In this document: positions 52,226 through 64,000 of the stretch, piece after piece | Position numbering within the stretch: the stretch's first letter is position 1 | Layout: every line of letters starts with the position of its first letter | DNA from: Magnetococcales bacterium | GTDB taxonomy: Bacteria; Pseudomonadota; Magnetococcia; Magnetococcales; UBA8363 | Direction of reading: 5' to 3' | Assembly (NCBI GenBank): GCA_002753515.1 | Contig: PEAK01000005.1 | Location: forward strand, 1-64,000 | Length of the DNA: 64,000 bases | The notes under the pieces: generated by a model | What the model was told of the DNA's origin: nothing | Database searches by the model: none | Seen by the model: only the letters and a program-made list of their open reading frames with translations | Program-made: the position numbers and the translations under genes

Positions 52226-52417
52226 ATGTCTTTGGAACTTCATGAAATTCAAGAAAAAATCGACTTTCTCAAGAAAAATCCCAACGTATTCGCCATCGTC
52301 AGGAGTCACAGTGGTGTCAGAGATTTGACCGATCTGCGGGCCCTCAACGCCAGCGCCCTCAACCGTTTGAAACGGTACGTGGATTATTACTATGGGATTC
52401 TGACGTTCCCCAATTAA
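52226..52417 (+). CDS. Hypothetical protein (63 aa)
   Basis: A small soluble helical protein (EIQEKIDFLKKNPNVFAIV near the start), not recognised. GAGGAG precedes the ATG by nine bases. A 7-bp-stem hairpin (CCGCGAT/ATCGCGG) follows 20 bp after the stop and may end transcription. It lies between yrfG and the second DUF3782-like gene. Confidence 0.6.
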   Translation: MSLELHEIQEKIDFLKKNPNVFAIVRSHSGVRDLTDLRALNASALNRLKRYVDYYYGILTFPN

Positions 52418-52436
52418 CACGTCTTGGTAAGGTGAC

Positions 52437-52453
52437 CGCGATACCATCGCGGT
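52437..52453 (+). terminator. Short GC-rich hairpin
   Basis: CCGCGAT and ATCGCGG pair around an ACC loop, 19 bp after the stop of the 63-residue gene. There is no T-run. It may act as a weak terminator or be part of the neighbouring repeat fragment. Confidence 0.3.
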
Positions 52454-52457
52454 TCCG

Positions 52458-52494
52458 AACCACAAACCAACACGGAAAACGTAGTTTTCCAGCG
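52458..52494 (+). repeat. Fragment of MITE family B
   Basis: Thirty-seven bases resemble the left arm of MITE B: an AACC(A/G)CAAACCAACACGG-type start followed by a GGAAAAC/GTTTTCC palindrome. The REP-like core and the right arm are absent. It is either an end left by deletion or a degraded copy, 77 bp upstream of the second coiled-coil/PD-(D/E)XK gene. Confidence 0.45.
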
Positions 52495-52570
52495 ATTGAA
52501 AAATGAGTTCCCTATGCCAGATAAAACGGGTATCTTTCTGTTGATAACGCCGTGAACAGGGGACACCGTA

Positions 52571-53239
52571 ATGTCGCAGGCCGTAACCTTCGATGATGTT
52601 TGGAGAATGTTTCAGGAGACAGACCGTAAGTTTCAGGAAATGGTCCGAGAAGACCGTGAGCGCAGGGCAGAACTTGATCGCAAATTCCAGGAAACCGACC
52701 GGCAGATGCAGGAAACCGATCGTAGAATGCAGGAAACCGACCGGCAGATGCAGGAAACTGATCGTAGAATGCAGGAGACCGACCGCTTGGTTAAGGAGGT
52801 CAGCCGGCAGGTTGGCAACCTGGGTAGCCGGTGGGGTGAGTTTGTCGAAGGGATCGTGGCCCCCGCCTGCGAGACCCTGTTTGCCAAGCGGGGCATCCCG
52901 GTACATCGTGTCTCGCCCCGGGTCAAGGCAATAAGCCTGGATGGCAGCCGCCGCATGGAAATTGACCTGATGGTGGTCAACACCGACAGCGTTGTCCTGG
53001 TGGAGGTCAAGAGTCGCCTGACCGCCGAGGATGTCCGTGATCATCTGAAACGGGTGCGCGAGTTCAAAGAGTTCTACGAGGGCGAAGGTGGTGCGAAGGT
53101 GATGGGTGCTGTGGCCGGTATCCTGATTGATAACGATGTGGATCAATTCGCCATGAACGAGGGGCTGTTCGTCATCGTTCAGTCTGGCGACAGCGTCAAG
53201 TTGGCCAATGACGGAAAGTTTGTACCACGTACCTGGTAA
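52571..53239 (+). CDS. Coiled-coil protein with PD-(D/E)XK nuclease-like domain (DUF3782-like), copy 2
   Basis: The 222-residue paralogue of the gene at 22343. It shares MSQAVTFDDVWRMFQE, the VGNLGSRWGEFVEGIVAPAC hinge, MEID ... VEVKSRL with the nuclease-like acidic/Lys pattern, and the end GDSVKLANDGKFVPRTW. The coiled coil is built from five QMQETDR/RMQETDR heptads encoded by near-identical 21-bp units. The sequence from ~70 bp upstream is also conserved between the two loci, so a unit larger than the ORF was duplicated. It directly precedes the DGR locus; any link is unproven. Confidence 0.75.
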   Translation: MSQAVTFDDVWRMFQETDRKFQEMVREDRERRAELDRKFQETDRQMQETDRRMQETDRQMQETDRRMQETDRLVKEVSRQVGNLGSRWGEFVEGIVAPACETLFAKRGIPVHRVSPRVKAISLDGSRRMEIDLMVVNTDSVVLVEVKSRLTAEDVRDHLKRVREFKEFYEGEGGAKVMGAVAGILIDNDVDQFAMNEGLFVIVQSGDSVKLANDGKFVPRTW

Positions 53240-53306
53240 ACGCAACGGTGTGCTTACAAACGAACAAAGATCGGTTTTGCCAAATCTGAAACAGTTGGCA
53301 GCATTG

Positions 53307-53456
53307 GCCTTGATCATTGTTTCGGCCATGCGTTGGCGAACTTCAGGATTCCCGCAGTCGCGGGCATGACGAGCAAATTTCGTGTTGTACCCAATGCAGT
53401 CATGCCCACGACAGCGGGCATCCAGGAGCGGGGGTGGCCGAAACGATGATCAAGGC
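53307..53456. mobile_element. Inverted-repeat element, family C (150 bp)
   Basis: A 150-bp element has near-perfect ~22-bp terminal inverted repeats (GCCTTGATCATTGTTTCGGC and its complement with one mismatch). It contains two REP-like palindromes (CCCGCAGTCGCGGG and CCCACGACAGCGGGC). No coding capacity. It lies between the coiled-coil gene and the cyclase-NACHT target, 67 bp upstream of the latter, and so could affect its expression. Target duplications are not clear. Confidence 0.65.
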
Positions 53457-53523
53457 TTGAACACGCTCTGATCTTTCAGATCGTGATGATAAGGGGTATT
53501 TTTATAATTCAGGAAAAAATTTC

Positions 53524-56500
53524 ATGCAACCCGAATCAGTGCCCGTTCCGGTTGTCTTGGTGGATATGGAAGGTTTCAGTCCACTGAAACCAGACGAACA
53601 GAGCGCTGTGGTTGCCCGTCTGCAAGAGGCCCTCACCCAAAGCATCAAGCTGCTGATTGGATTTACCAACCCCAAGGCGATCATTCGCCATGGTACCGGG
53701 GATGGTTATTATCTTTTTCTGGAACATTATCCAACCCCTGTGGCCATGCGTTTTGCCCTGAATCTGGAAAATATCCTTCGAGACGATAATGCCAACCATC
53801 CGAACTATCCGTTGCGGTTACGGGTGGGTCTCACTCTGGGCCGTGTTGGGCTTCAGGGGGATCAATATTTGGGAGAGGTTTTGACTGAGGCGGCACGGTT
53901 GATTGACCACGAATGGATCAAGGGGCTGCTGAAGGAGCGCATAGAGAATCCTATCGTCCTGCTGGCATCCCAATTTTTTTGGGATAACTGGCAAAACCAT
54001 GAACTGCGCACCGATCCAGCGCTCGCTTATCCCGAGGAGCGTCCCTGGATTTGCGCCGAATTGACCGTCAAGCATGGTGAAGTCCTGTTGGCCCATGTGC
54101 AGACGGATGCAGGAGTGTTTCAATCTATCCAGAAAAAGGCACCGGTGGATCAAGGGAGTACCTCGGTCCCTGATCTGACCCCGTGGTTGAAGGAACTGCT
54201 AGACTACACCCGCAATATTCAGATTATTGGCATTGGCTCGGGTGAAGGGAGCGGACAAAAGGCTTATCTTTATCCCATAGAACAACTCTACACCCCATTG
54301 AAAAGTCGCAATCCCCTTGGTGCGGTTGATTCCATGGATGGGGAGTTGCGTACTGGTATTAGGATTCCTGGGGATGGTCCCGGGAGCGATATGGCTGGGG
54401 TATCCTTGGCCGATCTGCTGCCGAAACACAAACGACTCTTCATCGAAGGCGATCCCGGTTCAGGAAAAACCACTTTTTTGCATCTGGCCGCCGCCATGCT
54501 TGCCAAGGATTTGCTGGATGAAAGAGGGGTTGCAAGCGAAAGTTGGCGCAAACGCCATCTGGGTATGGACGATACAAAAGAAGCCCCCAAGCCTCTTTTC
54601 CTCAAGTTGTCGGAGCTGGCCGTGCTGCTGGCCAAGGAGAGTACACTGACGAAAAAGGACGACCGCTTCCGGCTATTGGAGCTTCTCCAAGGTACGCGAG
54701 GGGCCGATCAGGATCCTGCCTGGAGTCATCATTGGCAATCGTTGCTTGAAGCGGGGAACGTTCTTCTGTTGTTGGATGGCTTGGACGAGGTGGCGGATGA
54801 AACCATCAGGGAACGGGTGTTTGCCATTTTTTCGGATGCTGATGAACATTGGAGAAACAGCCAGATTGTGGTTACAAGCCGTCCTTTTGGCGCGGAGAAA
54901 CTCACGAAGATGGGATTTCATCGTGCGGTGATCGAACCCTTCGGTGCGGGAGAGACGCGGGAATTCATCAACTGTTGGTCGGCGGCCTTGTTTGGCCATG
55001 CTATTGGCAAAAGGCCTACGGGTGTTGCAGGAGAAAAAGCCGATGCTATGGAGAAAGCCATCCTCAACCGTCCCGCCATCCGCAAGCTTGCGGCCAATCC
55101 GGTGATGCTGACCTGTCTTTGTGTCGTGCATTGGAACAGGGGGCAATTACCTGAGGGACGGTCGCGTGTGTATGACGTGGTGATCGACTGGCTGTTGGGT
55201 AGTCGGGAGGTTATTCGCAACGCGCATGGCTATCATAAGCGCTTTGCCATGGAGGCTTTTTCTGCCATTGCTTTTGCCATGATGGGGGGGAAGCAAGGGA
55301 ACAAACAGACGATTCTTGATCTGAAAAAAGCGGTAGATATCGTCGATCCCTTTGTTTCACGCTATTTTTCTGAGATAAATCCGAATCAACGGGAGGATTT
55401 TACGCGCAAGTGGCTGCGTTTTGAAGGCGTTTACAGCAACATTTTGGTGGAGAAAAACACCAACGGGTTCAGCTTTTGGCATTTGACCTTCCAGGAATAT
55501 CTGGCGGCTAAAGAACTAGCCAGCATGCGTGATGACAAAAACAAGGGTTGGTGGCCTGTAGTGGCCAGTCGCTTGGAAAATGTTCAGTGGCGGGAGACAG
55601 TGGATCTCTTCCCTGGAGTGTTGTTGGATGGAAACCTCAGGTTTCGTGTCGATGACCTGTTGACCTTTGTTATGGAACGCTACAGCGGAAGTGGCTTGGC
55701 CAAGGTTGCTTGCAAGGCTGGCATCATGAACCGCATTTTAGAGCCGACCAAGGTTTACGGCTATAGGCCCGATGCTGTGACCCAAGAGCAATACCAGCAG
55801 GTGCTCAAGCAGGCTATGGCGATTTTCACCCTGAAGGGGGCCGCCCAGGTGCCCATCAAGGATCGCCTGCTTGTGGCGGAGGCCCTTGGTCAGGGAGGTG
55901 ACCCGCGTCTTGCTGAGGATCGATGGCGGGAAAACCTGATCAAGGTACCCGGTACAGATATCGCCCTGGGAAAATATTTGGTGACGGTGCAGGAATACCA
56001 GCGCTTTGTCGAGGATGGTGGTTATGACAACCCCGACCATTGGTGGGAGGAGCGTGCCTGGACCTTCCGCCAAGCCGAGGGATGGCAAGAGCCAAGCGAT
56101 TGGGCCAACCAATTGGATCACCCCAACTGGCCGGTGACGGGCGTTTCCTGGTATGAAGCGTCAGCCTATTGCCGTTGGCTCCAGACACAGAGAAATGTAG
56201 AGTTTTTTTTGCCTGAGGAAGAAGACTGGAAAACAGCGGCCACTCCTGCCCAAGGTAAATACTCCTGGGGCAACGCAAAGCCTACTCCAGAGTTGGCCAA
56301 TTACGACAAGAGCAAAATAGGCCATGCTACTCCGGTGGGGCTTTATCCCGATGGCAATGGTCGGTATGGTCATTGCGATTTGGCGGGTAATGTCTGGGAA
56401 TGGAGCGCCGCTTCATGGATGGACTCCGATTTTTCTGACGAGAATATTCAAAAGTACGGACCACCGCAGGTGGTCAGGGGCGGGTCCTGGGACTACCCGG

Positions 56501-56604
56501 TCGAGGACTTCCGGGCCGCCATGCGCTTCAGGAACCATGCCGTCTCCCGCAGCTGCTTCCTGGGCTTTCGCGTCGCTGCCCCCGCCAGCACGGTTGATCC
56601 TTGA
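53524..56604 (+). CDS. DGR target 1: nucleotide cyclase-like-NACHT-FGE-sulfatase protein
   Basis: The 1026-residue protein is an NLR-like STAND ATPase. The N-terminal domain (about 5-190) is class III nucleotide-cyclase-like and keeps both metal-binding Asp (VDMEGFS, D14; GTGDGYY, D60). The NACHT domain has Walker A GDPGSGKT (309-316) and Walker B LLLLDGLDEV (about 414-423). After a helical region, an FGE-sulfatase/C-type-lectin-like domain (about 800-1020) contains GNVWEWS and RGGSWDY. The last ~39 codons are a DGR variable repeat (56476-56592). I infer a sensor whose ligand surface is diversified and whose binding triggers oligomerisation and perhaps nucleotide signalling. AGGA lies upstream of the ATG. 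Confidence 0.85.
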   Translation: MQPESVPVPVVLVDMEGFSPLKPDEQSAVVARLQEALTQSIKLLIGFTNPKAIIRHGTGDGYYLFLEHYPTPVAMRFALNLENILRDDNANHPNYPLRLRVGLTLGRVGLQGDQYLGEVLTEAARLIDHEWIKGLLKERIENPIVLLASQFFWDNWQNHELRTDPALAYPEERPWICAELTVKHGEVLLAHVQTDAGVFQSIQKKAPVDQGSTSVPDLTPWLKELLDYTRNIQIIGIGSGEGSGQKAYLYPIEQLYTPLKSRNPLGAVDSMDGELRTGIRIPGDGPGSDMAGVSLADLLPKHKRLFIEGDPGSGKTTFLHLAAAMLAKDLLDERGVASESWRKRHLGMDDTKEAPKPLFLKLSELAVLLAKESTLTKKDDRFRLLELLQGTRGADQDPAWSHHWQSLLEAGNVLLLLDGLDEVADETIRERVFAIFSDADEHWRNSQIVVTSRPFGAEKLTKMGFHRAVIEPFGAGETREFINCWSAALFGHAIGKRPTGVAGEKADAMEKAILNRPAIRKLAANPVMLTCLCVVHWNRGQLPEGRSRVYDVVIDWLLGSREVIRNAHGYHKRFAMEAFSAIAFAMMGGKQGNKQTILDLKKAVDIVDPFVSRYFSEINPNQREDFTRKWLRFEGVYSNILVEKNTNGFSFWHLTFQEYLAAKELASMRDDKNKGWWPVVASRLENVQWRETVDLFPGVLLDGNLRFRVDDLLTFVMERYSGSGLAKVACKAGIMNRILEPTKVYGYRPDAVTQEQYQQVLKQAMAIFTLKGAAQVPIKDRLLVAEALGQGGDPRLAEDRWRENLIKVPGTDIALGKYLVTVQEYQRFVEDGGYDNPDHWWEERAWTFRQAEGWQEPSDWANQLDHPNWPVTGVSWYEASAYCRWLQTQRNVEFFLPEEEDWKTAATPAQGKYSWGNAKPTPELANYDKSKIGHATPVGLYPDGNGRYGHCDLAGNVWEWSAASWMDSDFSDENIQKYGPPQVVRGGSWDYPVEDFRAAMRFRNHAVSRSCFLGFRVAAPASTVDP
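56476..56592 (+). other. DGR variable repeat VR1
   Basis: The 117-bp segment aligns without gaps to the template repeat at 58108-58224. Twenty-one positions differ; 12 of these are at the template's 24 adenines. Nine differences are at non-adenine sites, seven of them clustered in five consecutive codons (template P-A-A-H-L-R against V-E-D-F in the target). It encodes the end of the FGE-type domain, positions where DGR lectin-like targets show their binding residues. Confidence 0.9.
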
Positions 56605-56630
56605 TTGGTTTGGTTTTTGATCTTTGTCGG

Positions 56631-56655
56631 GTCCAGGGGGCGTAGCCCCCTGGAC
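56631..56655 (+). promoter_or_regulatory. Hairpin downstream of VR1 (DGR target-recognition type)
   Basis: An 11-bp perfect stem GTCCAGGGGGC/GCCCCCTGGAC with a GTA loop lies 38 bp after VR1. The same hairpin follows VR2 at 59710-59734, embedded in a near-identical ~70-bp block. In characterised DGRs a hairpin/cruciform just downstream of the VR is needed for efficient retrohoming, so I assign that role by analogy. It may also act as a terminator for the target gene. Confidence 0.75.
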
Positions 56656-56664
56656 TTGCAAAAT

Positions 56665-56827
56665 GACACGATTTTGTCATTCTTGGGCTGTTTTTGTCAT
56701 TTTACTTGACAAAACAGGCAAATTTCCTTAGATTTTGTCAGTTATGTGTCACTTTGGCGATTGATTTGTCACTTTTAGAGTGACAAAATGACAAATCAAG
56801 AAGGAAATTGTCACTTTGTATCTGTCA
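56665..56827. promoter_or_regulatory. Array of TTTGTCA/TGACAAA motifs upstream of the HTH gene
   Basis: About nine copies of TTGTCA(T/C) or its complement TGACAA occur in both orientations over 160 bp, up to and across the start of the HTH gene. A similar array flanks the other side of the cassette (59346-59480). The likely reader is the HTH protein encoded here, as autorepressor or organiser. No other replication gene is present, so an origin is unlikely. Confidence 0.65.
56706..56734 (+). promoter_or_regulatory. Candidate promoter for the HTH-avd-TR-RT cassette
   Basis: A perfect -35 TTGACA is followed after 17 bp by TAGATT, matching four of six -10 positions. TTTGTCA motifs overlap the -10, so binding there would block polymerase. 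The distance to the HTH start is about 80 bp. Confidence 0.4.
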
Positions 56828-57481
56828 TTGACCGAAGCGGCCATTGTTTTGGGAAAGACGCCGCGTCAGGTGCGTTATCTCATCAAGAACGGGATGTTAA
56901 AGGCGAAGAAGGAAAAGGGGTGTTGGGTTATCGACAACGGAGATTTACCCCTTTCCACAGCCCAACGCCAAGCCATGGCCCGACGTGCCGAGACCGCGCA
57001 AAATGCCATGGCCGAAGCCACAGCACCTTTGCAAAAAGCGGCCTCCCTGGAATCTGCACCCGCAGAAGCGAAAACCACAGACGGCGAAAAGGAGAAAAAA
57101 CCCTACTCTGTCACCGATCTGAGGGCCTTCACCCTGGGGGCGGAAATTTATCGCGAGATGGACAATGATCTTGGGAGGGAAAATCCGGCCAGGCTTTGCC
57201 TTTTTGATGCCCTGAAAAAGCTTTGCCGGGGGTGTCATGCCTTTCAGCCACCACAAAAGGAGGCTCGCTTTACCGAGGCACGAGAGGCGGCAGCGGATGC
57301 AGTTGCCATTTTGCTTTTGGAAGGCGAGGCCCATGATCCCCAACGAATGCTCCTGGCCAATCGCATCGAAACCGAACTGATTCCCAAGCTGGCGGCTTTG
57401 GCTGCCGGTCAGGAAAAACGGGCGCGCAAGAAGCAGCATGGCAGTCTTAGTGGCTTTTTTCCCGGCACCTTTGGGGAGTAA
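56816..57481 (+). CDS. HTH DNA-binding protein of the DGR cassette
   Basis: The 221-residue protein begins with an excisionase/MerR-like helix-turn-helix (LSLTEAAIVLGKTPRQVRYLI, then GCWVIDNGDLP), followed by an Ala/Glu-rich linker (about 60-100) and a C-terminal helical domain of about 120 residues (FTLGAEIYREMD, ARLCLFDALKKLCRG, AREAAADAVAILLLEGE). The TTG start is chosen because it places the HTH at the N-terminus and AAGAAGGA lies ~10 bases upstream; a nearby ATG at 56788 is in another frame. Its TAA overlaps the avd ATG (TAATG). It probably binds the TTTGTCA array. The C-terminal part may contact the DGR machinery, but this is inference. Confidence 0.7.
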   Translation: MYLSLTEAAIVLGKTPRQVRYLIKNGMLKAKKEKGCWVIDNGDLPLSTAQRQAMARRAETAQNAMAEATAPLQKAASLESAPAEAKTTDGEKEKKPYSVTDLRAFTLGAEIYREMDNDLGRENPARLCLFDALKKLCRGCHAFQPPQKEARFTEAREAAADAVAILLLEGEAHDPQRMLLANRIETELIPKLAALAAGQEKRARKKQHGSLSGFFPGTFGE

Positions 57482-57970
57482 TGCGACCCGCCCCCCTGTA
57501 TGGCGACACCATGCGTCTCGCCGCCCTGATTCTCCGCGTGACCGAAGCGCCAACGTTCAGGCAATCGCCATTGGGGTGGCGCTTGCAGGAGGGGGTGTTG
57601 CGTCTTGTGGATCATGTGGTACTGGCGTTGGCCGGACAGGAGCGGCAACAGCGCATCGCTGCTGCCGATGCCGAACTGCAAACTTTGCGGGCTCACTGTT
57701 TTCTTGCCCTGCAAATGGCCTTGATGGAGGAAGATCTTTTTCTAAACCGCACCCAGCACGGGAAACGTAGTTTCCCGGCGTCATCCCCGCGAAAGCGGGG
57801 ATCCAGAAAGTCAGGGAAGGTAGAAAAGTCCTCTGGATCCCCGCTTTTGCGGGGATGACAATAACTACACATTCCAAGATAGCTGCGGTTTAACAGTGGC
57901 CGAAGCGGCGCAAAAAGTGGGTCGGCAGTTGGGTGGATGGCGTAAAAAAGGGCAGGCCAAATCTGCGTGA
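57481..57970 (+). pseudogene. avd: avd (DGR accessory protein), split by MITE B
   Basis: Avd is a small helical-bundle protein that forms a ring, binds the reverse transcriptase and TR RNA, and is required for mutagenic retrohoming in studied DGRs. The first 88 codons (to LMEEDLFL) are intact and start one base into the HTH stop. A 146-bp MITE then interrupts; the frame runs on to a stop at 57858 with 37 foreign residues. If the element and one TA are removed, codon 88 joins TVAEAAQKVGRQLGGWRKK and ends at 57970, giving 113 residues with the LGGW C-terminus usual for Avd. As it stands, the last helix is lost, so function is doubtful. Confidence 0.8.
57745..57890. mobile_element. MITE family B, copy 1 (146 bp), inside avd
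   Basis: The element has short inverted ends AACCGCA / TGCGGTT, TA on both sides, and an inner pair of CATCCCCGCGAAAGCGGGGATCCAG-like palindromes in inverted orientation (positions 57778-57860). A second copy lies in the opposite orientation at 59485-59631. It has no transposase. Joining its flanks restores the avd frame, which fixes the borders. Confidence 0.88.
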
Positions 57971-58107
57971 TGTCGCATCGGTTACCCTCTGGATGTGCCC
58001 CGGCGACGCAGAAAACTTGCCACCCAGGGGAAGGGAAGCTATCCTGAATCGGGGACGCTTCGAATGAAGAATTTCGCTATCGCCATGGACATCATCATGA
58101 ACTCCCA

Positions 58108-58224
58108 AGGGGCGGGTCCTGGAACAACCCGGCTGCGCACCTTCGCGCCGCCATGCGCAACAGGAACCATGCCGACAACCGCAACGACAACCTGGGCTTT
58201 CGCGTCGCCGCCCCCGCCAACACG
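58108..58224 (+). other. DGR template repeat (TR)
   Basis: A 117-bp non-coding copy of the targets' last 39 codons, between avd and the reverse transcriptase as usual. Read in the VR frame it is rich in AAC codons (eight), the classic design that lets adenine mutagenesis reach up to 15 amino acids per codon without creating stops. It has 24 adenines; 12 are changed in VR1 and 10 in VR2. A stop (TAG) follows directly after the homology. An unrelated open frame across it is not a gene. Confidence 0.9.
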
Positions 58225-58351
58225 TAGGACATCCCCGCCGTGCAGAAGCATCCCCGGTGCCAGCCATGTGCGCCGAAACATTCCATGCCCGCCCGTTCCC
58301 GTAAGCGCCAAGCGCTGAGCGTCCGGGCGGGCTATCATCTCATGACAGATC
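58225..58351 (+). ncRNA. Structured spacer between TR and reverse transcriptase (DGR RNA)
   Basis: The 127-bp spacer can fold: GCCCGCCCG (58287-58295) pairs with CGGGCGGGC (58324-58332), and a nested AGCGC/GCGCT hairpin (58304-58316) fills the loop. In the Bordetella phage DGR the spacer 3' of TR is part of the template RNA and is needed for cDNA priming and RT binding. I assign this role by position and structure; transcript ends are unknown. The stem ends 19 bp before the RT start and may also mask its RBS. Confidence 0.5.
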
Positions 58352-59344
58352 ATGCGTCGCATCGGCAATCTTTTTGATGCGATCCTCTCTCCGGGCAATC
58401 TGTGGCGGGCTTGGCAGGAGTTCGCCAAAGGAAAACGCCAGCGCACCACGGTGGCTGATTTTGAATGGCGAGCCCCACAGGAGGTTTTGTGTCTGCATCA
58501 GCAATTGATGGCGGAAAACTACCGTCCCCAGGGCTACCGCCTCAAGATGATCCACGAACCCAAACGCCGCCTGGTGGCCGCTGCCCCGATACGCGACCGC
58601 ATCGTCCATCATGCCATCTATCGGATTCTGTCACCGCTTTTGGACCCAGGGTTGATTCGCGAAACCTGGGCTTGTTTGCCGGGGCGCGGCAGTCATCGGG
58701 CGCAGATTGCCTGCATGGGGGCCATGCGGGATTATCCCTGGCGGCTAGCCCTGGACATACGGCACTACTTCCCCAGTATCGACCACGCCATTCTCCTGGA
58801 AAACGTCATGGCACGGTGTATCAAGGATCGTCGCCTGCTCGAACTGCTCAGGAAAATCTGTCAAAGTGGTGATGGACTCTATCGGCAGCCGGGAATTGGG
58901 GAATTTTTGGGATTTCCGTCTGATTTTCCTCCGGCAGGCTGTGGTTTGCCCATTGGCAATCTGACCAGTCAGTGGCAGGCCAATCATTATCTTTCCGGCC
59001 TGGATCATCATGTGAAGCGCATCGTGCAGATTCCTGCTTATCATCGCTACATGGATGACATGCTCTTTTTTGCCCACTCTAAAAGCCAGTTGCAGGAGAC
59101 CCGTGTTTTGGTGGCGGAATGGCTCTGGGAGCAGCGCCGTCTGAAACTGAAGCATCCCAACGTTGCTGTTCATTCCACCAAGCAGCCTATGACTTGGTTG
59201 GGCAAACGCATTTCTACTTCTGGCATCAACCCAAGCCGTCGGCTGATCCGTAAAATGCAGTGTCGCATGACCGAACTGATCCGCCAGGGTGATGAAGAGA
59301 CCATTCGCCATGCCGTTGCCTCCTACCGTGGGGTACTGCTGTAG
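58352..59344 (+). CDS. DGR reverse transcriptase
   Basis: The 330-residue enzyme copies TR RNA into adenine-mutagenised cDNA. The palm is intact: LALDIRHYFPSIDH (motif A-like Asp), GCGLPIGNLTSQWQAN with the DGR-typical IGNxTSQ in place of the QGxxxSP of retroviral and group II enzymes (about residue 202), and the catalytic YMDDM (about 233). The length is normal for a DGR RT, with no maturase or endonuclease domain. It is preceded by TR and the spacer and followed by the right-hand TTTGTCA array. All catalytic residues are present even though the avd gene is broken. Confidence 0.93.
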   Translation: MRRIGNLFDAILSPGNLWRAWQEFAKGKRQRTTVADFEWRAPQEVLCLHQQLMAENYRPQGYRLKMIHEPKRRLVAAAPIRDRIVHHAIYRILSPLLDPGLIRETWACLPGRGSHRAQIACMGAMRDYPWRLALDIRHYFPSIDHAILLENVMARCIKDRRLLELLRKICQSGDGLYRQPGIGEFLGFPSDFPPAGCGLPIGNLTSQWQANHYLSGLDHHVKRIVQIPAYHRYMDDMLFFAHSKSQLQETRVLVAEWLWEQRRLKLKHPNVAVHSTKQPMTWLGKRISTSGINPSRRLIRKMQCRMTELIRQGDEETIRHAVASYRGVLL

Positions 59345-59345
59345 A

Positions 59346-59480
59346 TAAAGAATGACAAACTGTTTTTTAGAAGTGACACTTTGTCAGTTTGTCATCCTCA
59401 GAGTGACACATGGGATGACAAATTGTCATTCGTAGGGATTATTTTGTCAGTTTGTCACCTTTTGAATGACATTTTGTCAG
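59346..59480. promoter_or_regulatory. Array of TGACA/TTTGTCA motifs downstream of the RT
   Basis: About eleven copies of TGACA/TGTCA, mostly as TTTGTCA or TGACAAA, occur in both orientations in 135 bp directly after the RT. With the array at 56665-56827 they bracket the core cassette. More isolated copies occur at 59660-59705 next to the VR2 hairpin. Candidate operators for the cassette's HTH protein. Confidence 0.6.
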
Positions 59481-59484
59481 TTTA

Positions 59485-59631
59485 AACCGCAGCTATCTTG
59501 GAATATGCAGTTATTGTCATCCCCGCGAAAGCGGGGATCCAGAAAGTTAGAGAAAGGTGTGTAGACTCCTTGGATCCCCGCTTTCGCGGGGATGACGCTA
59601 GAAAACTACGTGTCCCGTGTTGGTTGCGGTT
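59485..59631. mobile_element. MITE family B, copy 2 (147 bp)
   Basis: This copy is inverted relative to the one in avd and has the same AACCGCA/TGCGGTT ends, TA on both sides and the same two REP-like palindromes. It is inserted between the TGACA array and the VR2 hairpin block. The two copies differ at more than a dozen positions between and beside the palindromes, so they are not a fresh duplication of one another. Confidence 0.85.
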
Positions 59632-59709
59632 TAAACGGACAAAATCAGGCGGAAAACGTCAAATTTGTCACTTTTACGGACAAAAAACGGCTTTTTTCGT
59701 CATTTTGAA

Positions 59710-59734
59710 GTCCAGGGGGCTACGCCCCCTGGAC
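59710..59734 (-). promoter_or_regulatory. Hairpin downstream of VR2 (DGR target-recognition type)
   Basis: The same 11-bp stem and GTA-type loop as at 56631-56655, in the orientation of the minus-strand target gene, 38 bp after VR2. The surrounding ~70 bp differ from the VR1 block at only a few positions. The matching spacing and orientation support a role in retrohoming. Confidence 0.75.
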
Positions 59735-59760
59735 CCGACAAAGATCAAAAGCCAACCCAA

Positions 59761-62700
59761 TCAAGGATCAACCGTGCTGGCGGGAGCGGCGACGCGAAAG
59801 CTCAGGGTGTCGAAGCGGTTGACTGCATGGCTCCTGTAGCGCAAGGCAGCGCGAAGAAACGCAGCCGGGTTGTCCCAGGACCCGCCCCTGACAGGGCGAA
59901 CATTTCCATCGTCTGTGCTGACAACGGGATCTTGAGCCGGTGAACTCCCACTACGTTTTCGGTAAGCGTTTCTATCCCAATCATCCTGGCACCACTCCCA
60001 GACGTTACCTGCCAGATCGAGATGACCGAAGGGTCCACGACCAGCGGGATAGTGTCCCACCAATGATGGTTTGCCGTTGTTCCTGCCCATGTCAAAACAG
60101 GCCAACTTTTTTGTAGGTTCTTTATCGCCCCAAGGGTAACGGAGACTCTCCTTACCCCGTGCGGCATACTCCCTTTGCGCCTCGCTGGGTAGAAAAATTA
60201 TCTGACCCGACTCCCGGGTGAGCCAGGCACAAAAAGTCATGGCATCATGCCAATCTACCCCTACTACCGGTTGTCGGGGGTCGGCAAATCTTTGCTCGCG
60301 CCAATAGCCAGGTTCCTGGTGTTTTGCCGCTTTGAGAAAAAGAGCATACTGTTGGTTGGTCACCGGCATTTCCGCCAAATAGAAGGGCGAGAGGATGACC
60401 TGATGTTCCGGTTTCTCGTCGTCGTCTCCATTGTTGTCTCCCATGGTAAAGACTCCTCCAGGTACTGGCAACAAACGCAGACCCGGCATGGGTTCCAGAA
60501 TGAGTAAGTCGATACTTTTCCGAATAATCCCTGTTGGGGTACCCACAGATTTATCACGGGGGGGCGATTTGATTTTCAGTGAAGGGCTTTGTTTGATATC
60601 TCTTTCCCCGTTCAAGTGTTGCACAAGTTGGGTAACAACTTTTTGCAGATCGTTTGAGCGCCCATCCACCTGGATGAGGTTTTCCCATTTGACGAGCGAT
60701 GCTGGATCTACCGGACTATCTGGCAACAACAGGGTGAACAACCGACAATGGTTACCTAAATACATCAATCCATCCTCGGTATCCGCCTCCGCAAGCGCAT
60801 GTCCATTCCCAGCCAGAAAAAGGATAAAACGGCATTTTTGCCGAATCTCATCCAAATGTTGCAGCCAGTCATGAACAGCCCAGTCCCGTTCATTTTTCGG
60901 CCAGGGATGCCATCCCGCCCGGGTTGACAATAGAGAAGCCAGTTGATCGGCGACCGTTTCATCCACAGGGGCATGGATCAAGAGCAGGTCGAATTTCTTT
61001 TTCGTACCCTCCGTATCCTCCCCCAGAAGACCCTTTGCCAGTCCAGAGACGTTGGGGTTGGCATGCCCTTTAAGAGTTGCCGCCGCCTGTAGCACATCGG
61101 GGTCAGTCACCCCGTTGAGCAAGCGCAATAGTGCTGTTAGTTCTCCAACCTTAGTTTTGTTATCCTTGAGTGAGGCAACAAACACGGAATAATCAGGTTG
61201 CACCGCCTCGGTCAGCATGGTCCGCATCAGTTCGTTGCGGCTTTCCTCCAGGATACCCGGTAACAACCGCTTCATCATCGGCGCAAACAGCCTGTATCCC
61301 GGGATGGCGACCAGCAACAACAACACTTCCCGCCACCAGTTCTCATCCGCCTGCCCAGCCAGAATATTCAACAACCCATCACCTTCCGACATGACCACAT
61401 GCCGTGCCGCCAAATATTCCTGCAAACCCAGGTGCATGAAGCCGTATTGTTTCTGTGCGTATTCGATGAAAATACCGGTATCCCGGTTGAGCCACTCCAA
61501 AATGGCAAGTCCTGTCGGGGCATCCTTCTTTCCTGCAAGTTGTTGTTCGGCAAAATTGGCAAACTCCAACTGTCTGACATTATCCCGCCGTTTTTCTTGG
61601 TGAAGTTTCCAGGCCAAAGGTTGCAGGATATCCATGGCTGCTTGCAAATCCAATAACGGCTCCACGTCTGCTTGCTCGCGACGCCACTTGTTCAGCATGA
61701 TCTCCAGGCATTTTTGGTAAAATGCCGCCCGGTTTCTCGGAATCTCTCCCCCCCTGAGGACGACCAGGCACAGCAAGGTGAGCAGCAAGGGATTGCCCAT
61801 CAATAGCTTGATGCGTTGGTCAGCAAAGGCTGTTTTATCCATGGTACCGAGCAATCGCAGGGAACGGTTCTTTGCCTCTGTTGCTTGCGCATCGCCCATA
61901 TGTTTGCAGGCTTCGTCAAACCAGACGTGAACGAATTCCTCTACCCGTTGTCCGTCCAGGGGTTTGACATCCAAAGGAAAAAAATTCTCTAATCGTACGT
62001 TACCTTCATACCCCGCATAACGGCAGGAGACGATAGCGTAGATGTTTCTTTCCTGAAAGCCAACCAACTGGCCAGCGATACGTTCTGCTACCCGAGCCCG
62101 CAACTTGGAATCGGCAATTTCATCCAAACCATCAAACAGCAACAACAGATTGCCCGATTCCCAAAGATTACGTTTGAACTCCCCTGGGAAACGCCCGCCG
62201 GATAATTCCCGCAATTCCTTGTTGATGTAATGGATTAATGGCTGATGCAAATATTCCTCGGTAAAATGACGCAACCTTAGAAAAATCGGTTTCATGCCGT
62301 GGGGTAGAGCCAATTGTTCTGATCCTTGCTTGAGGCAAAGATGGAGGATTTTTTTCAGGGAGGTCGTTTTGCCCGCCCCCGGTTCACCAAACAACACCAC
62401 GCATTGCCTGAGCTTTCCATCTTTGTCCTTGAAGATATCCTTCAATTCCACATCGCCAAAGCTTTGTTCCCTGGCTTTATCGCCCAGACTCTTTGTGAGT
62501 CTACTTTCAAGATCGACGCCGAAGGCCCGTTGCGAGATACGTAGAGGGATGAAGACCCGCTCTAAATCCAGTGAAATATCACCCCCCTCCACCCCCAACA
62601 GCGACACCTGGCTAAATTTGGCCAATGCCCAATCTGAATAAGTGCTTTTCTTTGTGTCCTCAATAATCTTTTCTTGTTTGGGTTGTGGCTTATTGGCTAG

Positions 62701-63186
62701 TTCGCGGATGCGATGATTTAAATTCTTGAAAATTAGCTTTTGTTCAACTTCTGACATCTGTTCCAACGTTCGTTGCGGTGTGGCGAACCCCTGAAGGGAG
62801 GTCAGTTTTCTGGTTTCATCCGTATTGGAAAGGGTAAAAGGGAAGCGGGTCTCTTCGGCATCTGAAGGGCTAACAAAGACGAGAAGAATTGTTAGTGTCT
62901 TCTTTTCCCAAGCATCAACAAGTGGCGGCAACTCCTTTTCCCAAATAAAATCGGAGGCCAGGAAGGCTTGCGATATAAAAAGAACAGCGACATTGGCCTC
63001 ACGGATAGCTTGGTTGATTTCTACTTCCCATTCGTGTCCCGTTTTGATGCCGCCGTCATGCCAAACAGTGGCCAACCCTTCCCGTTCCAATGTCTTGGCA
63101 AAAGGAAGGAAGCCTTTCAATATCTTGGCATCGGCATGGCTGTAACTTATGAAAACTTTTGCGTTTGGCATGTCCGGGGTATCCAT
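59761..63186 (-). CDS. DGR target 2: TIR-NACHT-FGE-sulfatase protein
   Basis: The 1141-residue protein is a second NLR-like receptor. A TIR domain (about 8-130) begins KVFISYSHAD and keeps the acidic residue of the SDFIWEKEL helix (E85), the position of the catalytic Glu in NADase TIRs. NACHT follows with Walker A GEPGAGKT (about 268-275) and Walker B LLLFDGLDEI (about 345-355). A further alpha/beta domain (about 720-860, FDLLLIHAPVDE) may be a second TIR-like fold. The FGE-sulfatase domain (about 900-1141) ends in VR2. I infer ligand-triggered NAD depletion or signalling. The gene starts 28 bp after glyS on the same strand; Met6 is an alternative start. Confidence 0.87.
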   Translation of the reverse strand: MDTPDMPNAKVFISYSHADAKILKGFLPFAKTLEREGLATVWHDGGIKTGHEWEVEINQAIREANVAVLFISQAFLASDFIWEKELPPLVDAWEKKTLTILLVFVSPSDAEETRFPFTLSNTDETRKLTSLQGFATPQRTLEQMSEVEQKLIFKNLNHRIRELANKPQPKQEKIIEDTKKSTYSDWALAKFSQVSLLGVEGGDISLDLERVFIPLRISQRAFGVDLESRLTKSLGDKAREQSFGDVELKDIFKDKDGKLRQCVVLFGEPGAGKTTSLKKILHLCLKQGSEQLALPHGMKPIFLRLRHFTEEYLHQPLIHYINKELRELSGGRFPGEFKRNLWESGNLLLLFDGLDEIADSKLRARVAERIAGQLVGFQERNIYAIVSCRYAGYEGNVRLENFFPLDVKPLDGQRVEEFVHVWFDEACKHMGDAQATEAKNRSLRLLGTMDKTAFADQRIKLLMGNPLLLTLLCLVVLRGGEIPRNRAAFYQKCLEIMLNKWRREQADVEPLLDLQAAMDILQPLAWKLHQEKRRDNVRQLEFANFAEQQLAGKKDAPTGLAILEWLNRDTGIFIEYAQKQYGFMHLGLQEYLAARHVVMSEGDGLLNILAGQADENWWREVLLLLVAIPGYRLFAPMMKRLLPGILEESRNELMRTMLTEAVQPDYSVFVASLKDNKTKVGELTALLRLLNGVTDPDVLQAAATLKGHANPNVSGLAKGLLGEDTEGTKKKFDLLLIHAPVDETVADQLASLLSTRAGWHPWPKNERDWAVHDWLQHLDEIRQKCRFILFLAGNGHALAEADTEDGLMYLGNHCRLFTLLLPDSPVDPASLVKWENLIQVDGRSNDLQKVVTQLVQHLNGERDIKQSPSLKIKSPPRDKSVGTPTGIIRKSIDLLILEPMPGLRLLPVPGGVFTMGDNNGDDDEKPEHQVILSPFYLAEMPVTNQQYALFLKAAKHQEPGYWREQRFADPRQPVVGVDWHDAMTFCAWLTRESGQIIFLPSEAQREYAARGKESLRYPWGDKEPTKKLACFDMGRNNGKPSLVGHYPAGRGPFGHLDLAGNVWEWCQDDWDRNAYRKRSGSSPAQDPVVSTDDGNVRPVRGGSWDNPAAFLRAALRYRSHAVNRFDTLSFRVAAPASTVDP
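59773..59889 (-). other. DGR variable repeat VR2
   Basis: The 117-bp 3' segment of the TIR-NACHT gene aligns without gaps to TR. Sixteen positions differ, 10 of them at template adenines. The others are mostly third-codon-position changes plus one codon (CAC against TTT) changed at all three positions. The altered codons map to the same AAC/GAC positions as in VR1, with different residues. Confidence 0.9.
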
Positions 63187-63214
63187 GATAAAGATACAGG
63201 CCTTTCACTTTTGG

Positions 63215-64000
63215 TCACAAACGGCTGATATCGGCCACTTTGTAGAAGGCGCCGCGTACCCGGGCAAGTAATGCCAAACGATTCAGTCGCTTGCCCATGT
63301 CCGGGTCCATGACCATGATCTGATCAAAGAACGTGTCGATCCCTGCCCGTAAACCGGCCAGATGACCAAGGGCGTGGGCATAGTTGCCGTGCTGAATGGC
63401 GGCATCCACCTGTTGTTCGACTTCGACCAAACGCCCGAGGAGTTCGCCTTCGGCGGGTTCGGTGAATTGGGCAGGATCCAGGGGGTGGTGTTGCCAATTT
63501 TCCGTAGCCTTGGAAAGAATGTTGGCAATACGTTTGTTGGCCGCCACCAGTGCCCCGTAGGATTCCATCGTTCTGAACTGGTTGAGGGCGACGATACGTT
63601 CGCGTATATCGTAACAATCATCAAGCCCCAATGTTTGCACCGCTTCGATCAGGTCGTAGTCAAAGCCGCTGGTTTTAAGGTGGTTTTGCAAGCGTCCATC
63701 AAAAAATGCCGTCAAATTGTCCACTGTCTGCTGCCGATTGTTGGTCAATACGCCTGGTGCGAAGGCATCGTAGGCCGATTCCATCAGGGTAACCCAATGG
63801 AACCGGACACCACCATCGTCCAGCAACATGCGAATGATGCCCAAAGCGGCACGACGCAAAGCAAAGGGATCTTTGGTGCCAGTGGGGACCAGACCGATAC
63901 CGAAGCATCCCGCCAGGGTATCCAGTTTGTCGGCCAGGGAAACCAGGCGGCCCTCCAGGCTTTCCGGCACGCTGTCCGCCGCACCCATGGGCCGGTAATG
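63215..64000 (-). CDS. glyS: Glycyl-tRNA synthetase beta subunit (C-terminal part)
   Basis: GlyS is the large subunit of the alpha2beta2 glycyl-tRNA synthetase that charges tRNA-Gly in most proteobacteria. The frame is open to the window edge and reads HYRPMGAADSVPESLEGRLV, a conserved GlyS segment, then DPFALRRAALGIIRML and a C-terminal anticodon-binding region ending VRGAFYKVADIS. The window holds about the last 260 codons. The preceding part and the alpha-subunit gene glyQ, normally upstream, lie outside. It is unrelated to the neighbouring TIR-NACHT gene. Confidence 0.93.
   Translation of the reverse strand, partial: HYRPMGAADSVPESLEGRLVSLADKLDTLAGCFGIGLVPTGTKDPFALRRAALGIIRMLLDDGGVRFHWVTLMESAYDAFAPGVLTNNRQQTVDNLTAFFDGRLQNHLKTSGFDYDLIEAVQTLGLDDCYDIRERIVALNQFRTMESYGALVAANKRIANILSKATENWQHHPLDPAQFTEPAEGELLGRLVEVEQQVDAAIQHGNYAHALGHLAGLRAGIDTFFDQIMVMDPDMGKRLNRLALLARVRGAFYKVADISRL

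Follow-up and report, generated by a model that had tools for sequence, protein, structure and literature searches.

Diversity-generating retroelements (DGRs) that serve two targets of the STAND type (signal transduction ATPases with numerous domains) with a C-type lectin (CLec) end are already known. Such paired targets, versions with a TIR domain and loci damaged by miniature inverted-repeat transposable elements (MITEs) are described in Doré 2024 (PMC10907252), where the diversified CLec domains are proposed to be antigen sensors. We report a related locus in a 64,000-nt stretch of DNA from a Magnetococcales bacterium (contig PEAK01000005.1), hereafter called the window, in which positions count from the first letter. 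At 53524-63186, a DGR comprising a helix-turn-helix (HTH) gene, avd, a template repeat (TR) and a reverse transcriptase (RT) gene is enclosed by two inward-facing STAND proteins, T1 and T2. According to that paper (PMC10907252), the clade 5D cellular DGRs, Thiohalocapsa PB-PSB1 DGR 3 and DGR 6, share with this locus one DGR and two targets, each with an N-terminal domain, a STAND NTPase and a single diversified C-terminal CLec/FGE domain, and clade 5D was also reported with TIR N-termini and MITE-like damage of DGR parts. The window locus differs from the cases described there in its inward-facing targets with different effectors, its HTH gene, its TTTGTCA iterons and its place in a Magnetococcales island; the likeness is one of target architecture.

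The BPP-1 phage DGR has an RT, Avd, TR, variable repeat (VR), initiation of mutagenic homing (IMH) mark and a hairpin downstream of the VR, as does the window locus, but it has a single phage receptor target and no STAND proteins (Guo et al. 2011, PMC3240598). Conflict systems with DGR-linked FGE-like domains were published earlier (PMC7159879). In those ternary systems with FGS domains (Kaur et al. 2020, PMC7159879), a diversified FGE-type domain is likewise tied to signalling or effector domains, which include cyclic nucleotide monophosphate (cNMP) cyclases, some of them predicted to be inactive. Their vWA, MoxR and VMAP components were not recognised in the window locus. Antiviral STAND and bacterial NACHT proteins are built like T1 and T2, with an N-terminal effector, a NACHT NTPase and a C-terminal sensor; in T1 and T2, however, the sensor is a diversified FGE domain, and a role in defence would be assigned to them by analogy.

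Based on the results below, we consider it likely that the window holds a mobile DGR island which diversifies a pair of NLR-like (nucleotide-binding leucine-rich repeat receptor-like) STAND proteins from one template, its engine being probably off in this genome. The TR and the two 117-bp VRs of the initial annotation are real, and the mismatches are concentrated on TR adenines: 12 of 21 in VR1 (p=4e-5) and 10 of 16 in VR2 (p=8e-5). A chance origin of the VR-TR similarity is ruled out by the 117-bp matches and these adenine statistics. Near the 3′ end, all VRs have AGC where the TR has AAC. This IMH mark was excluded from the pooled counts of adenine (A) and non-A changes, each VR being compared with its own TR. 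The eight paired VRs of four relatives (genomes G005, G006, G007 and G026) showed 104 A versus 5 non-A changes, and plain gene duplication without DGR action is ruled out by these adenine-confined changes. In the two VRs of the window the counts were 20 A versus 15 non-A (Fisher 3e-7 versus the intact loci). Sites 29, 31, 36 and 39 of VR1 and site 31 of VR2 fit an older TR state still present in relatives; therefore, these VRs were last written before the TR changed.

The second departure from the intact loci concerns avd. The gene is present, as initially annotated, but it is not intact, being split at 57743 by a 151-bp repetitive element with the features of a MITE. The truncated Avd consists of 88 native residues followed by 37 MITE-coded ones and matches bAvd and DivGenRetAVD weakly, while intact orthologs match bAvd at 1e-8 to 3e-11. 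The displaced 3′ end of the gene matches the C-terminus of four intact Avd orthologs, and the lost motif VGRQLGGW is invariant in those four; avd is whole in all four relatives. The MITE-like family has at least 40 near-full-length copies in the window genome, one of them identical (e.g. C74:5628-5778). Because the VRs have drifted, avd is split by the MITE and the VRs predate the TR change, retrohoming has probably slowed or stopped in the window lineage, and the engine looks disabled. The RT itself is of the DGR type, in agreement with the IGNxTSQ and YMDD motifs reported initially. Among solved structures, the BPP-1 DGR RT (PDB 8ub7, E=2e-38) matches it best, and group II RTs trail at E=1.5e-17. 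Among viral contigs, one distant RT and no HTH relative were found.

The closest named relatives of the window genome are Magnetococcales metagenome-assembled genomes. Homologs of the RT with 78-85% identity occur in three same-genus genomes and in one from another family. As proposed in the initial annotation, T1 on the plus strand and T2 on the minus strand converge on the HTH-avd-TR-RT core, the same coordinates having been recovered, and FGE-ended targets face each other around this core in all five loci of the subfamily (the window, G005, G006, G007 and G026). Elsewhere in the order, DGR loci with visible FGE targets (G020, G022, G002, G007 C39, G008 and partly G035) have these targets on the RT strand, and in none of them do the targets face each other. 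Since all five loci share the facing layout and the other loci with visible targets are co-directional, this layout is a stable feature of one DGR subfamily. More distant Magnetococcales DGRs (L098, L099, L102, L104 and L106) also have FGE targets that run in the direction of the RT; they lack the HTH gene and contain few TTTGTCA copies.

The locus lies in an island, and an empty site was found in three same-genus genomes (G007, G002 and G003), where glyS directly neighbours gph-argJ and the matching ends are 73-214 bp apart. Genes other than gph and glyS border the remaining four loci. In G026, which belongs to another family, the RT is 80% identical, compared with 53% for ArgJ and 52% for GlyS, which points to horizontal transfer of the island between families. 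Within the island, the parts are exchangeable. Viewed from the core, T1-type targets occupy the upstream side in the window, G005 and G006, and T2-type targets do so in G007 and G026. Two of the five loci thus have their core inverted with respect to the targets. Judging from the sequences, the inverted VR-hairpin repeats of about 190 bp would recombine to give such an inversion. N-termini are exchanged among loci (cyclase-homology versus metallophosphoesterase), and some targets are TIR-FGE proteins without NACHT, such as the right-hand target of G006, which has a frameshift in its VR. A further locus of G006 (C6:103400-108600, L096) holds a facing pair of a T1-type and a TIR-FGE target and has lost the core but for an HTH remnant. 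In its VRs, adenines of the C9 template account for 17 of 21 and 17 of 22 changes, which suggests action in trans or recent core loss. The view that one engine feeds two targets with diversified FGE tips thus stands for the locus family, with 104 of 109 changes at adenines and differing N-terminal effector types kept, but probably not for the window copy; the MITE in avd, the drifting VRs and the transferable nature of the island had been missed. Inside the island, next to T1, there is also a gene of the DUF3782/PDDEXK type (52571-53239) with a 21-bp tandem repeat coding region (QETDRQMQETDRRM).

The hairpins reported after the VRs were also found, and within the window genome they occur only at VR1 and VR2. 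A hairpin of the form GTCCAGGGGGC-n-GCCCCCTGGAC, in which n is two or three bases and the outer pairs vary, follows the paired VRs in 5/5 loci and never follows the TR. Three VR-like copies lack an intact hairpin: a metallophosphoesterase-NACHT-FGE gene of the window genome, a TIR-FGE gene of G007 and an FGE gene of G006. Pooled, these copies show 43 non-A versus 41 A changes (Fisher 3e-14 when set against the hairpin-bearing VRs of intact loci). Every well-maintained VR has a downstream hairpin, and the VRs without one have drifted; this drift agrees with the BPP-1 DGR, which requires the downstream hairpin (PMC3240598). The first of the three copies is a solitary gene on contig C97 (C97:9679-13203, L034:1679-5203) with a VR-like end and neither hairpin nor iterons. 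Of its 32 differences from the TR, 14 are at A, and it may be a former distant DGR target. As to the RNA, the consensus fold of the TR-RT spacer contains 6 pairs with compensatory changes across the five loci, and Rfam gave no match anywhere in the window.

Pfam agrees with the initial description of T1 and T2 as STAND proteins sharing a C-terminal FGE domain and differing in their N-termini (Table 1). Both have the STAND/NLR-like build of an effector, a NACHT domain with Walker motifs and a C-terminal sensor; the motifs read from the translations are GDPGSGKTT and LLLLDGLDE in T1 and GEPGAGKTT and LLLLFDGLDE in T2. EruA-type NACHT models gave weak matches, far below the cut-off. The cyclase link of T1 held in part: the profile of its N-terminus matches the class III cyclase PDB 3mr7 (E=7.5e-9), but the Pfam match is below the cut-off. 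In T2, the second TIR-like stretch, between NACHT and FGE, is also below the cut-off (E=0.003). The FGE ends are related to the DGR variable protein TvpA (PDB 2y3c, E=7e-19) and match FGE structures in the PDB as well, so that the variable residues sit on what is, by homology, a C-type-lectin/FGE fold. Many large proteins across the Magnetococcales share the N-terminal cyclase-homology domain of T1 (L048-L062), a family that extends beyond the DGR loci.

The HTH protein is modelled as an HTH followed by a predicted four-helix region and is 70-85% conserved in the four sister loci. The full-length protein was found only with this DGR subfamily, in 5 of 48 genomes of the order, and a phylum-wide sample of 398 gave these 5 again. 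An Avd-like second bundle was considered and rejected: Foldseek returned Avd (4dwl) and S23 proteins at E of about 0.3-1, and comparison with the Avd profile shows no similarity. The two spacers (632 bp) contain 15 copies of TTTGTCA versus 12 in the rest of the window. The motif is similarly concentrated in the four relatives (8/9, 13/16, 12/16 and 11/14 copies), and no such concentration was found in the order's other DGR loci; cores are flanked by the iterons only in loci that carry the HTH gene. We know of no HTH gene or iterons of this kind in the BPP-1 DGR. The right array sits where two genes converge, an unlikely place for a promoter, and for this reason the iterons may act at the VR ends as well as in regulation.

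Table 1. Coordinates of the DGR island and its parts in the window.
Feature	Positions	Strand	Details
Island	52417-63217		~10.8 kb; gph with small conserved neighbour (ends 52417) on one side, glyS end on the other
T1	53524-56604	+	1026 aa; Pfam NACHT E=9e-8, FGE E=8e-36
T1 domains	cyclase-homology 53524-54153; NACHT about 54409-54981; FGE about 55960-56577	+	
VR1	56476-56592	+	End of T1; 117 bp, 82% identity to TR
DNA hairpin 3′ of VR1	56631-56655	+	GTCCAGGGGGC-GTA-GCCCCCTGGAC
Left TTTGTCA iteron array	56673-56795		7 copies, upstream of HTH gene
HTH protein	56816-57481	+	221 aa, TTG start; Pfam HTH_17 weak, below cut-off
avd, interrupted	57481-57858	+	5′ part to 57743, then MITE-coded residues up to stop
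MITE-like element in avd	57743-57893		151 bp, inverted-repeat ends
Displaced avd 3′ end	57894-57970	+	VAEAAQKVGRQLGGWRKKGQAKSA; last ~25 codons, out of frame with 5′ part
TR	58108-58224	+	117 bp
TR-RT spacer	58225-58351	+	Conserved structured RNA; consensus fold
DGR RT	58352-59344	+	330 aa; IGNLTSQ, YMDD
Right TTTGTCA iteron array	59353-59670		8 copies, between convergent RT and T2 ends
Second MITE-like copy	59482-59634		Right spacer
DNA hairpin 3′ of VR2	59710-59734	-	
T2	59761-63186	-	1141 aa; Pfam TIR_2 E=3e-17, NACHT E=8e-8, FGE E=1e-46
T2 domains	TIR 62827-63156; NACHT 61912-62403; degenerate second TIR-like 60652-60963; FGE 59788-60471	-	
VR2	59773-59889	-	End of T2; 117 bp, 86% identity to TR

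We suggest the following working for this type of locus. The RT, together with Avd, would reverse-transcribe the TR-spacer RNA and introduce mutations at its adenines. The resulting cDNA would then replace either inward-facing VR, the marks of which are an IMH end and a DNA hairpin further downstream, and the replacement would rewrite residues on the FGE/C-type-lectin tip of the two receptors. By analogy with STAND defence proteins, and with the proposal that diversified CLec domains are antigen sensors (PMC10907252), we think that a ligand bound by the diversified tip would make the NACHT domains oligomerise and switch on the N-terminal domain, giving a TIR output in T2 and a cyclase-type output from the cyclase-homology domain in T1 (metallophosphoesterase in some relatives). 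In the window genome, with avd split and both VRs drifting, the two receptors would now be fixed versions.

Several observations weigh against the proposal of a two-receptor island with a stopped engine. With one consensus genome per species in the sample, the VRs may still vary within the population of the window genome. The MITE appears to be younger than the drift of the VRs and may therefore not be what first halted homing. In the cyclase-homology domain of T1, the two metal-binding Asp residues and the Arg are retained, but Thr replaces the catalytic Asn, and the cyclase activity of the domain is therefore uncertain. An AlphaFold model of the FGE tip (predicted local distance difference test score, pLDDT, 40) was too poor to place the variable residues and was not used. 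Finally, an antiphage role and ligand recognition by the targets are inferred by analogy. As to the engine, it is unlikely that the DGR is still active in the window genome, with the non-A differences arising from the TR change and the truncated Avd working or being replaced in trans. The RT, TR, IMH marks and hairpins are indeed intact, part of the non-A differences does trace to the TR change, and the population behind the single consensus may hold an intact variant. Yet about eight of the 15 non-A differences (VR1 26, 34, 79 and 102; VR2 33, 66, 88 and 105) are matched by no relative's TR, and re-homing would have wiped out the traces of an older TR. The window genome yielded no second DGR RT, and the C-terminus lost by Avd is the part with the motif invariant in four relatives.

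Instead of phage defence, the paired targets could have a part in recognising kin or in some other response at the surface or to stress; we regard this as rather unlikely. TIR-STAND architecture is typical of defence proteins, and the TIR domain of T2 resembles ThsB-type TIR models (E=9e-14), although this is an argument from analogy only. Such an alternative role was proposed for DGR-diversified STAND systems in PMC10907252. There is a nearly, though not quite, even chance that the facing order is in itself without function, having arisen by inverted duplication of a target end and been kept by descent, with the flips due to chance recombination between inverted repeats. The loci do share descent (RT 75-85% identical), target orientation is irrelevant in the BPP-1 prophage (PMC3240598), and Thiohalocapsa DGR loci show duplications and transposon-driven shuffling (PMC10907252). 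However, the layout was kept in five loci of two families despite core inversion, N-terminus exchange and, in G006 C6, even core loss. Moreover, in an E. coli chromosome, targets that run with replication undergo homing about 7- to 44-fold more efficiently (PMC12875486), and with such a shift opposed targets would differ in editing rate. If this rule holds, the opposed pair would always combine a fast with a slow target, whatever the insertion site of the island. GC skew, used to judge the direction of replication, points weakly to T1 as the co-directional target; the signal was too weak and was not used. A fuller scheme, which we consider doubtful, is that the HTH protein is a new DGR component which binds the arrays beside both VR hairpins and recruits or gates the retrohoming complex, while the inverted VRs let the core flip and swap the target on its strand. 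Jointly, these would give unequal, switchable rates for the two effectors.

With respect to our preferred reading of a mobile island serving two receptors, the following appears new as far as the literature searched goes: the conserved facing pair with different effectors, the HTH gene and iterons, the core inversion, the empty-site island and the Magnetococcales host. Earlier facing examples in the supplementary figures of PMC10907252 are possible. No DGR paper naming Magnetococcales was found in the literature searched. Magnetococcales are mostly single free-swimming cells. The published DGR-diversified NLR-like case was tied to multicellular bacteria (PMC10907252), and DGR-diversified NLR-like receptors are now placed in Magnetococcales too. 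The DGR receptor pair moves between families as an island with its own template and engine. The opposed target pair can be used to test the effect of orientation relative to replication on DGR efficiency, and the loci, with intact versus broken avd and VRs with versus without hairpins, provide a natural comparison for the fate of VRs once retrohoming stops.

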